A stretch of DNA of 64,000 nt, taken from contig NZ_CP017754.1 in assembly GCF_001854325.1 (NCBI RefSeq), positions 1-64,000 on the forward strand, given 5' to 3'. The translations under genes were made by a program, and so were the position numbers. Source of the DNA: Cupriavidus malaysiensis. GTDB taxonomy: Bacteria > Pseudomonadota > Gammaproteobacteria > Burkholderiales > Burkholderiaceae. Numbering within the stretch: position 1 is the first letter of the stretch; each line of letters opens with the position of its first letter. The notes beneath the pieces are model-generated. The model saw only the letters and a list, made by a program, of their open reading frames with translations, made no database searches and was not told where the DNA came from. Shown in pieces: positions 32,129-43,693 of this stretch.

Positions 32129-32752
32129 ATGAACCAGGACAAGACCCCACCGGCACCGCAACGCTGCGGCTGGTGCGGAACCCTAGAGGACTACTGCCAC
32201 TACCACGACCACGAATGGGGCTTCCCCGTGGACGACGACCGCCGGCTGTTCGAGAAGCTGTGCCTGGAAGGCTTCCAGGCCGGCCTGAGCTGGCTGACCA
32301 TCCTGCGCAAGCGCGAGGCCTTCCGCCGCGCCTTCGCCAATTTCGACATCGACAAGATGGCCCGCTTCGGCGAGCGCGACATCCAGCGCTTGCTGGGCGA
32401 CGCCGGCATCGTGCGCCACCGCGGCAAGATCGAGGCGGCCATCAACAATGCCCAGCGTGCGCGCGAGCTGCTGGAAAGCGAATCCTCGCTGGCTGCATAT
32501 TTCTGGCGTTTCGAGCCAGACCCGGCCAGCCGCCCGGACCGGCTCACTCCAGAGGTGCTGCGTGCCATGACCACCTCGCCCGAGGCCACCGCCCTGTCCA
32601 AGGACCTGAAGCGGCGCGGCTGGCGCTTCGTCGGGCCCACCACCATGTACGCGCTGATGCAAGCGATGGGGCTGGTCAACGATCACCAGGAGGGCTGTGC
32701 CGCCGGCGAGGCGGTTCGGCGGGCGCGCAAGGCCTTCAAGGTGCCGAAGTAA
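32129..32752 (+). CDS. tag: DNA-3-methyladenine glycosylase I
   Basis: A 207-residue constitutive alkylation-repair glycosylase that excises 3-methyladenine. It has CGWCG near the N-terminus followed by YHDHEWGFPV, then the KLCLEGFQAGLSWLTILRKR helix and the C-terminal NDHQEGC. The Cys/His pairs at both ends form the zinc snap typical of TAG. Start ATG 32129 follows CCAGGAGACGAGCGACC; the open frame upstream to 32006 overlaps the terminator and is not coding. Its last codons lie in the first GTAAAC of the hexamer cluster. Confidence 0.96.
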   Translation: MNQDKTPPAPQRCGWCGTLEDYCHYHDHEWGFPVDDDRRLFEKLCLEGFQAGLSWLTILRKREAFRRAFANFDIDKMARFGERDIQRLLGDAGIVRHRGKIEAAINNAQRARELLESESSLAAYFWRFEPDPASRPDRLTPEVLRAMTTSPEATALSKDLKRRGWRFVGPTTMYALMQAMGLVNDHQEGCAAGEAVRRARKAFKVPK

Positions 32753-33234
32753 ACCGGGGTAAACGTCCGGCAGCAGTACATCGCGTAAACCGGCGGCGAT
32801 GCGCGGGCCAGAACGAAGCCAGGACGCTGAACGTATACGCCGCCGCGCTCCCCGCGCGAGCGGGCCGCAGTAAGACAGATCCTGCCTGCGCCGGCGTATA
32901 CGGCAACGATCTCTCGTCTGGTTTCAATATTGTTTACGTATACAAAAATAGTAGTAGTAGGTAAACGGCACCCATTGCCGTGGATAAGCCACCTTTTTTG
33001 TTTCAATTCAATGACTTGAGTGATCGATAAGTGCTAGGAGCAAAGGCGGGTAAACGCTGATAAGTCTTGCGGATACGGAAGGGCGGCAGGTATACGTGGG
33101 GAGTTCTCCGTATACGCCCCACAAGGCGCCCCCAGGCGGGGCACAACTTGTCCAGCGGCTTATCCCCAGCCTGGCGGGGCATCTATCCACAGCCTGCCTG
33201 GATGCGGGGTGGCGGTGCGGCGGGCGGGGTATAC
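32749..33234. repeat. Cluster of twelve GTAWAC/GTTTAC hexamers with DnaA-box-like sites
   Basis: A gene-free stretch with GTAAAC at 32749, 32759, 32785, 32961 and 33050, GTTTAC at 32932, and GTATAC at 32833, 32896, 32938, 33090, 33110 and 33229. Many are followed by G or C-G, suggesting GTAWACG. At 32932-32943 two sites abut. GTATAC is expected about once per 12 kb at 67 percent GC, so six in 400 bases is a large excess. Three 8-of-9 matches to the DnaA box TTATCCACA lie inside it: 32979-32987 (minus), 33160-33168 and 33183-33191. An AT-rich patch sits at 32920-32960. No ORF is credible. The role is unknown: a regulator-binding array, or remains of a replication or mobile-element control region. 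Confidence 0.7.
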
Positions 33235-33277: not shown

Positions 33278-33316
33278 GCGCGACAAAGAGGCGCGACAAA
33301 GAGGCGCGACAAAGAA
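33278..33316. repeat. Three tandem copies of a 13-mer (GCGCGACAAAGAG)
   Basis: GCGCGACAAAGAG occurs twice in full and a third time with AA at its end, directly before the tRNA terminator. A slippage-prone array with no visible function. Confidence 0.9.
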
Positions 33317-33348
33317 AAAAGCCCGCCGATGTTGCCATCGGCGGGCTT
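33316..33348 (-). terminator. Terminator of the tRNA-Glu/tRNA-Asp transcript
   Basis: On the minus strand AAGCCCGCCGATG pairs with CATCGGCGGGCTT across GCAA, followed by TTTTCTTT. It lies just beyond the CCA end of tRNA-Asp. Confidence 0.88.
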
Positions 33349-33355
33349 CTGGTGC

Positions 33356-33432
33356 TGGCGGAGTGGACGGGGCTCGAACCCGCGACCCCCGGCGTGACAG
33401 GCCGGTATTCTAACCAACTGAACTACCACTCC
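33356..33432 (-). tRNA. tRNA-Asp (GTC)
   Basis: A 77-base cloverleaf starting GGAGTGGTAGTTCAGTTGG. The anticodon stem-loop is CCGGCCTGTCACGCCGGG, anticodon GTC. The T arm is CGGGTTCGAGCCCCG, the acceptor closes with CCACTCC, and CCA is encoded. It is the second gene of a two-tRNA transcript behind tRNA-Glu. Confidence 0.97.
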
Positions 33433-43582: not shown

Positions 43583-43693
43583 CGTTAACCCCCTGCTGCG
43601 CGGCAGCAGGGGCGGCGGCATGCCGGGCGGCTAATCCATTGCGTCAGAGAAGGCGCGCCCCTGGCGGCGATGCCTTTCGAATGACGCCGTGGA

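Follow-up and report, generated by a model that had tools for sequence, protein, structure and literature searches.

Bacterial chromosomes are, as a rule, replicated from one origin. According to the accessible part of a 2015 review, there was no evidence that two functional origins are ever used on one chromosome. A double origin has been predicted in Ralstonia pickettii 12D, at hemE and dnaA, from box counts and disparity curves, and the accessible account of it uses neither trios nor methylation sites (PMC4403523). Like the locus described here, that prediction involves two DnaA-box clusters on one chromosome, in that case hundreds of kb apart.

The exact strand layout of the DnaA box and DnaA-trio system is known from B. 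subtilis. In the basal unwinding system of oriC, as described for B. subtilis and H. pylori, a DnaA box is followed by a spacer, a run of TAG/CTA trios and AT-rich DNA, and the accessible part of a DnaA-trio survey gives a spacer peak of 10-13 nt, with a preset limit of 16 nt (PMC8287927). A second line of work concerns the methylation motif GTWWAC. This is the m6A target of an orphan methylase in Ralstonia solanacearum and is stated to be conserved across the Burkholderiaceae (accessible text of PMC5390034); it also appears in the motif list for Cupriavidus necator H16 (PMC12645576, in part). The methylase of Burkholderia cenocepacia is BCAM0992, encoded between trpB and trpA, and GTWWAC lies near all origins of that organism, with at least two sites between CACAG-methylated DnaA boxes; the accessible text describes neither a second origin-like module nor a trio run flanked by such sites (PMC7364216).

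The locus analysed here lies in a 64-kb stretch of the Cupriavidus malaysiensis genome (contig NZ_CP017754.1, positions 1 to 64,000), which we refer to as the window and which is 70.3% GC. Its features, in the numbering of the window, are as follows.

32129..32752, plus strand: tag, 3-methyladenine DNA glycosylase (Pfam PF03352, E 2.9e-71), the left neighbour, reading towards the module
32749..33234: origin-like module holding all 12 GTAWAC sites (of the m6A type GTWWAC)
32911..33020: AT-rich stretch, from 80-mers
32926-33005, plus strand: match to the R1 model of the core
32932..32943, plus strand: GTTTAC and GTATAC side by side, immediately upstream of the trio run
32949..32960, plus strand: DnaA-trio-like run TAGTAGTAGTAG (complement strand 3'-ATC...)
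32961..32978, plus strand: 18-nt spacer from the trio run to DnaA box 1, starting with the methylation-type site GTAAAC
32979..32987, minus strand: DnaA box 1, CGTGGATAA, one mismatch
33110..33115: GTATAC, conserved at its alignment position in 25 of 28 modules
33160..33168, plus strand: DnaA box 2, TTATCCCCA, one mismatch
33183..33191, plus strand: DnaA box 3, CTATCCACA, one mismatch
33356..33432, minus strand: tRNA-Asp, the right neighbour in this genome only, reading towards the module

The cluster of hexamers that drew attention to this stretch is confirmed. All 12 GTAWAC of the window, comprising six GTATAC, five GTAAAC and one GTTTAC, are confined to 32749-33234, as the original prediction had it, and the sole other GTWWAC is a GTTAAC at 43584. 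At the rate outside clusters, 0.031 GTWWAC would be expected per 486 bp (P ~1.6e-27). The 603-bp intergenic region holds 11, where 1000 dinucleotide shuffles averaged 0.51 and never exceeded 4, and the whole window holds 13, against 6.25 expected (mean of 20 shuffles). The first GTAAAC of the cluster shares bases with the tag stop codon. A following G, proposed as common to most of the sites, is present in 9 of 12 (C in 2, A in 1). GTATAC is indeed rare, and rarer than had been estimated from an assumed GC content of 67 percent: the 7.95-Mb genome contains 111, against 351 for the reversed control. The cluster is not the only one of its kind. In an 864-kb sample of the same contig (the last 400 kb joined to the first 464 kb), 31 of 86 GTWWAC fall into three clusters, namely the window cluster (12), C1:185448-186084 (11) and C1:337467-337870 (8, upstream of dnaA).

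Beyond the hexamers, the module resembles the basal unwinding system of oriC. On the other strand the order is box, spacer, CTA repeats and AT-rich DNA, the opening order of a DnaA box with DnaA-trios, and the trio run stands beside its box in the correct polarity, TAGTAGTAGTAG corresponding on the opposite strand to CTACTACTACTA downstream of DnaA box TTATCCAC. Polarity was compared with the B. subtilis layout as generally known and with the accessible part of the published survey (PMC8287927). The AT-rich patch beside the two abutting hexamers, both of which had been noticed earlier, is 62.5% AT in the 80-mers that begin at 32921 and 32931; the window is 70% GC overall, and its most AT-rich 80-mer reaches 63.75%. 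The GTTTAC column is kept in all 28 aligned modules of the window type and the abutting GTATAC column in 16 of the 28. The three DnaA boxes predicted at eight of nine matches are present at 32979, 33160 and 33183, within 213 nt; they are three of the six boxes in the window with at most one mismatch to TTATCCACA. Box 1 differs from TGTGGATAA in 28/28 aligned window-type modules, and its non-consensus letter is identical in 24 of them. The module departs from the described system in its spacer, which is 18 nt and thus beyond both the usual 10-13 nt and the limit of 16 nt, and which contains a GTWWAC site. The 18-nt length recurs in 22 of 28 window-type modules and in 28 of 29 modules of a second type, described below. 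A further difference is that here there are two copies per chromosome, neither of them beside dnaA in the Cupriavidus genomes measured.

The second copy was located with a 20-nt core pattern that, at up to three mismatches, has two matches in the 7.95-Mb genome, both exact, and none for the reversed control. The other match (C1:185797-185816, minus strand) lies between a SET-domain gene and a HU-family gene, 153 kb from the window module, and BLAST with this SET/HU region as query matched the window module at E 5.1e-5. The two modules have the same site order and nearly equal box spacing: boxes 1 and 2 are 182 nt apart in the SET/HU copy and 181 nt in the window copy, and boxes 2 and 3 are 22 and 23 nt apart. 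Across genomes, SET/HU-type modules have spacings of 181-182 and 22 nt in 29 of 29. The box 1-2 distance of window-type modules is 180-181 nt in 17 of 28 and 192-217 nt in others, and one case (G020) was measured at a mis-picked place. Compared with the window module, the SET/HU module has stronger boxes, is better conserved (mean column identity 78%, against 63% for the window type) and is closer to the skew minimum in two of three profiled genomes.

Two elements of this picture have been reported before: GTWWAC near origins, and the DnaA boxes of the SET/HU module. The accessible account of C. metallidurans CH34 places the skew transition ~90 kb from dnaA and describes, ahead of it, a group of three perfect DnaA boxes spanning 213 nt (PMC2864759). 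This length equals 182 + 22 + 9, and G031, which we infer to be CH34, has three perfect boxes at such spacing. The cluster of four boxes that has been described for C. metallidurans at 3,707,588 was considered and rejected as the window-type module, which sits at 3,683,270 in G031. The openly accessible literature that was searched did not yield any account of paired trio modules in Cupriavidus.

The paired arrangement is nearly universal in the genus. Genomes were searched with R1, a sequence-only model of the core built from 35 modules, whose E-values are rough. R1 took the place of a strict gapped pattern that matched Cupriavidus only (10 of 150 genomes) and was too strict for other genera; three-mismatch patterns performed at chance level (2 matches in the own genome, 3 for the reversed control), and a tally of 41/60 was thus left unused. 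At least two strong matches to R1 are present in 33 of 36 Cupriavidus genomes. One module only was found in G001 (99% complete) and G016 (94%), and none in G012 (54% complete); G001 and G016 showed no GTWWAC cluster over the 20 kb that follow tag. Since these two genomes carry a single module, the window module appears to be dispensable in some species. In all 21 genomes with the pair on a single contig, the two modules have opposite orientations and are separated by 134.6-219.8 kb (median 145.1); dnaA lies 80-153 kb away from the SET/HU module in 20 genomes. In G030, for example, the window-type module is at 3,650,388 of contig C3 and the SET/HU-type module at 3,793,331, with dnaA near 0.8 kb.

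Related modules extend through the family. A core match at E 0.01 occurs in 128 of 150 genomes family-wide, and any match at all in 3 of 24 genomes of other families. All 13 genomes of genus label g48, taken as Ralstonia because of their genome shape and the SET neighbour, have three matches; six of them have the first two at a distance of 127-152 kb, in the same inverted geometry as in Cupriavidus. Among the matches listed for labels g37, g44 and g49, at least seven genomes have two opposite-strand matches ~3 kb apart, and one such pair flanks two genes. An exact 18-nt pattern searched in named genomes returned 56 stretches, 47 in Cupriavidus, 2 in Burkholderiaceae bacterium 16 and 7 in scattered taxa; the last look like chance.

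Several individual cases deserve mention in their own right. In one g49 genome (G152, L303), two inverted modules 3 kb apart, with their AT-rich sides facing, enclose two genes ~72 kb from dnaA and resemble a bipartite origin. One g48 genome (G124) has three complete-looking modules on one chromosome (L304, L305 and L306), all with trio runs and DnaA boxes and one of them at a SET-domain gene; the 2.5 kb fetched around the first contains no GTWWAC. Two core matches on the same strand, 0.4 kb apart, were found in a genome of another family (G042:C1:5138120-5138575).

Judged by its conservation against diverged flanks, the module is under selection across the genus. Over their first 100 nt, the 28 window-type modules have a mean pairwise identity of 0.70, followed by 0.46 and 0.57 in the two stretches after that, compared with 0.26-0.41 in five flanking stretches. 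Spacing and sites are thus kept in relatives, which the original prediction had named as the mark of a meaningful array, and the alternative it had allowed, a decayed remnant or chance repeat, does not fit a module that is conserved where its flanks are not. The alignment of these modules (A1) includes four added by hand (G025, G003, G030 and G002). Five genomes of the genus (G004, G005, G009, G011 and G018) stand outside it, their tag loci not having been retrieved, and R1 finds two modules in each. Another alignment, A3, comprises 35 of the 57 modules from A1 and A2. In a module tree of 46 of 47 rows (the second match of L250 was dropped), which has too few columns, one well-supported branch splits the window type from the SET/HU type together with the g48 rows.

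The hexamers had been tentatively attributed to an undescribed DNA-binding protein. Because GTWWAC is a published target of an orphan methylase, no such protein is needed. The C. malaysiensis genome contains an N6_N4_Mtase ORF beside trpA (C1:3488673-3489797, E 4.3e-54), which falls under every NCBIfam cut-off that it touched, and by our reading of the ORF a trpB fragment lies on its other side. This is probably the gene of the GTWWAC methylase, equated with RSc1982/BCAM0992 by gene place only, and its product would methylate GTWWAC in C. malaysiensis. The sites themselves vary as the motif allows. In the spacer of window-type modules the site is GTAAAC in 21 of 28 and GTTAAC, one column earlier, in 6 of 28, and two columns of the SET/HU-type modules alternate between GTAAAC (14 and 13) and GTATAC (11 and 10). 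Such A/T variation exactly at the W positions fits methylase specificity better than one fixed binding sequence. GTWWAC totals are 148 in the window-type and 199 in the SET/HU-type alignment, against shuffle means of 5.95 and 7.48, and are biased upward, some modules having been located by GTATAC, trio or box features; in the same alignments seven other WW palindromes give 0-11, and GTSSAC 22 and 11.

A mobile element inserted beside tRNA genes had also been suggested as the source of the cluster. The tRNAs proved incidental, following the module in 1 of 27 loci scanned, that of the window itself, and the paired module is present in 33 of 36 genomes; its genus-wide fixed position argues against a mobile-element source. 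In G017 the module lies ~7.5 kb from tag. The tRNA block does not switch strand within itself, as had been claimed, since all three tRNAs are on the minus strand; the switch is between tag (plus) and the tRNAs (minus). An RNA gene within the stretch was considered and rejected, Rfam reporting tRNAs alone. By eye, a short tandem repeat (gcgacaaagag-like) at 33281-33317 precedes a terminator-like hairpin of the tRNA-Asp gene. Elsewhere in the window, at 1548-1643 on the minus strand, ARAGORN called a tRNA whose type is undefined and whose anticodon has four bases; the call is probably false, Rfam giving none at the gathering threshold.

Which of the two modules is the main oriC can be approached from strand skew. 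In the stretches sampled, the cumulative GC skew of G000 reaches its minimum at 186-197 kb and that of G015 at 193-199 kb, both within ~15 kb of the SET/HU module. The minimum of G035, at 4,491-4,504 kb, is 74-87 kb away from that module and nearer dnaA. The SET/HU module is the better candidate for the main oriC because of the minima in G000 and G015 and the match of boxes and skew in CH34. The window module as sole oriC was rejected: there is a local skew minimum inside the window, but the wider sampled minimum is near the SET/HU module in G000 and G015, and the window module shows no consistent corrected switch. An oriC adjacent to dnaA was rejected too. Upstream of dnaA there are GTWWAC sites and DnaA boxes, but this region yielded no trio run, and its GTWWAC cluster is absent in two of four genomes (8 sites in G000, at C1:337467-337870, 7 in G007, and 0 in G015 and G035). 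For C. necator NH9, the putative origin is described in the accessible text as surrounded by a dnaA homolog and three boxes (PMC6379261). The dnaA-upstream cluster (L048) is possibly a lineage-specific methylation control of dnaA.

Taking these results together, we consider it probable that the window stretch is a second, paralogous copy of a DnaA-dependent origin opening core with GTWWAC marks, most likely a helper or regulatory site for DnaA loading and possibly a weak or conditional origin, with the SET/HU module probably serving as the main oriC. The layout, the pairing, the selection and the methylase gene on which this reading builds are demonstrable in the sequences, and the earlier view of a real, functional-looking array bearing on replication control is supported; the interpretation attached to it is thus partly supported. 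What leads us to prefer a helper or regulatory function to an active second origin is the skew result, together with boxes that are weak yet conserved and with the two single-module genomes.

We postulate that DnaA would bind box 1, polymerise on the trios and open, or try to open, the AT-rich DNA. The GTWWAC sites that flank the trio run on either side or lie in the spacer would turn hemimethylated after passage of the fork, and hemimethylation might alter the ease of DnaA assembly, a role comparable to that of GATC at the E. coli oriC. The window copy would then act as a DnaA-loading helper or regulator 135-220 kb from the SET/HU copy. In E. coli, GATC sites are clustered at oriC and at dnaA. 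The likeness to the Dam/SeqA system is one of working only, a palindromic adenine-methylation motif concentrated at the origin and, in some genomes, upstream of dnaA; motif and enzyme are different here, the dnaA-upstream cluster is missing from two of the four genomes, and we know of no SeqA-like reader for GTWWAC here. B. cenocepacia offers a further parallel, with the same motif, the same neighbourhood of the methylase gene and sites near replication origins (PMC7364216, accessible part).

It is quite possible, if short of an even chance, that the window module is a purely regulatory DnaA site that opens no DNA, titrating DnaA or changing its nucleotide state in the manner of datA or DARS. 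Sites of those kinds are recognized as DnaA boxes with IHF-dependent nucleotide hydrolysis or exchange. Boxes that are weak, non-consensus and nonetheless conserved would suit such a site, as would a distance of 135-220 kb from the partner and the lack of a consistent skew switch. A site that only binds DnaA could, however, do without the trio run and the AT-rich DNA that the module has kept.

That the window module is an active second origin, with forks also starting there in at least some cells, seems unlikely to us. The complete opening-core layout, its selection and the same inverted geometry in Cupriavidus and six g48 genomes speak for it, as does the cumulative skew of G000, which dips locally at 31-41 kb and peaks locally near 111 kb, between the modules. 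Direction-corrected third-position skew, calculated with simple ORF calling, speaks against it. In the 50 kb to the right of the window-type module it is negative in three of four genomes and positive only in G000 (left/right values +0.004/-0.013 in G015, -0.004/-0.012 in G035, -0.025/-0.014 in G007 and -0.030/+0.014 in G000), and no consistent switch at the module was found in the four. According to the accessible marker-frequency data, B. cenocepacia chromosome 1 replicates bidirectionally from the predicted origin region, which also argues against two origins, although those data are in 10-kb bins and the modules there are maybe only 3 kb apart. The position of that origin is described, in accessible text, as uncertain, with a second DnaA-box cluster (PMC4948915). 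For C. necator N-1, marker-frequency reads and Hi-C data are public under BioProject PRJNA1440041 (PMC13342612). The broadest version of the idea, in which the primary chromosomes of Cupriavidus and much of the Burkholderiaceae carry two or three methylation-gated DnaA opening modules, each able to start replication, and GTWWAC methylation shares or switches initiation between them, we regard as less likely still.

A promoter or transcription-factor cluster is very improbable. In Ralstonia, GTWWAC marks favour upstream regions, and the accessible methylome paper interprets the SET/HU sites as a promoter pair (PMC5390034). At the window module, however, a promoter role for tag or tRNA-Asp is unlikely because both genes read towards it; the module is kept where the right neighbour differs, and the interchange of A and T in the GTWWAC columns suits a methylase more than a single factor. 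Least probable of all is that the module is the decaying remnant of a former origin, retained by chance; this would account for the loss or non-recognition of the module in G001 and G016 and for boxes weaker than those of the SET/HU copy, but hardly for a core identity well above that of the flanks in 28 genomes, with one GTTTAC column invariant.

The SET/HU copy as main oriC and the window copy as its helper or regulator would have consequences for how these genomes are described, since origin annotation would shift away from dnaA, where some genome papers put it. GTWWAC methylation, for which a role in replication was suspected earlier and left unexplained, would gain a candidate function from sites placed around and between the DnaA box and the trios. 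A fixed and selected second opening module in nearly the whole genus and in relatives within the family would be either a testable exception to the one-origin rule or a new control of initiation.
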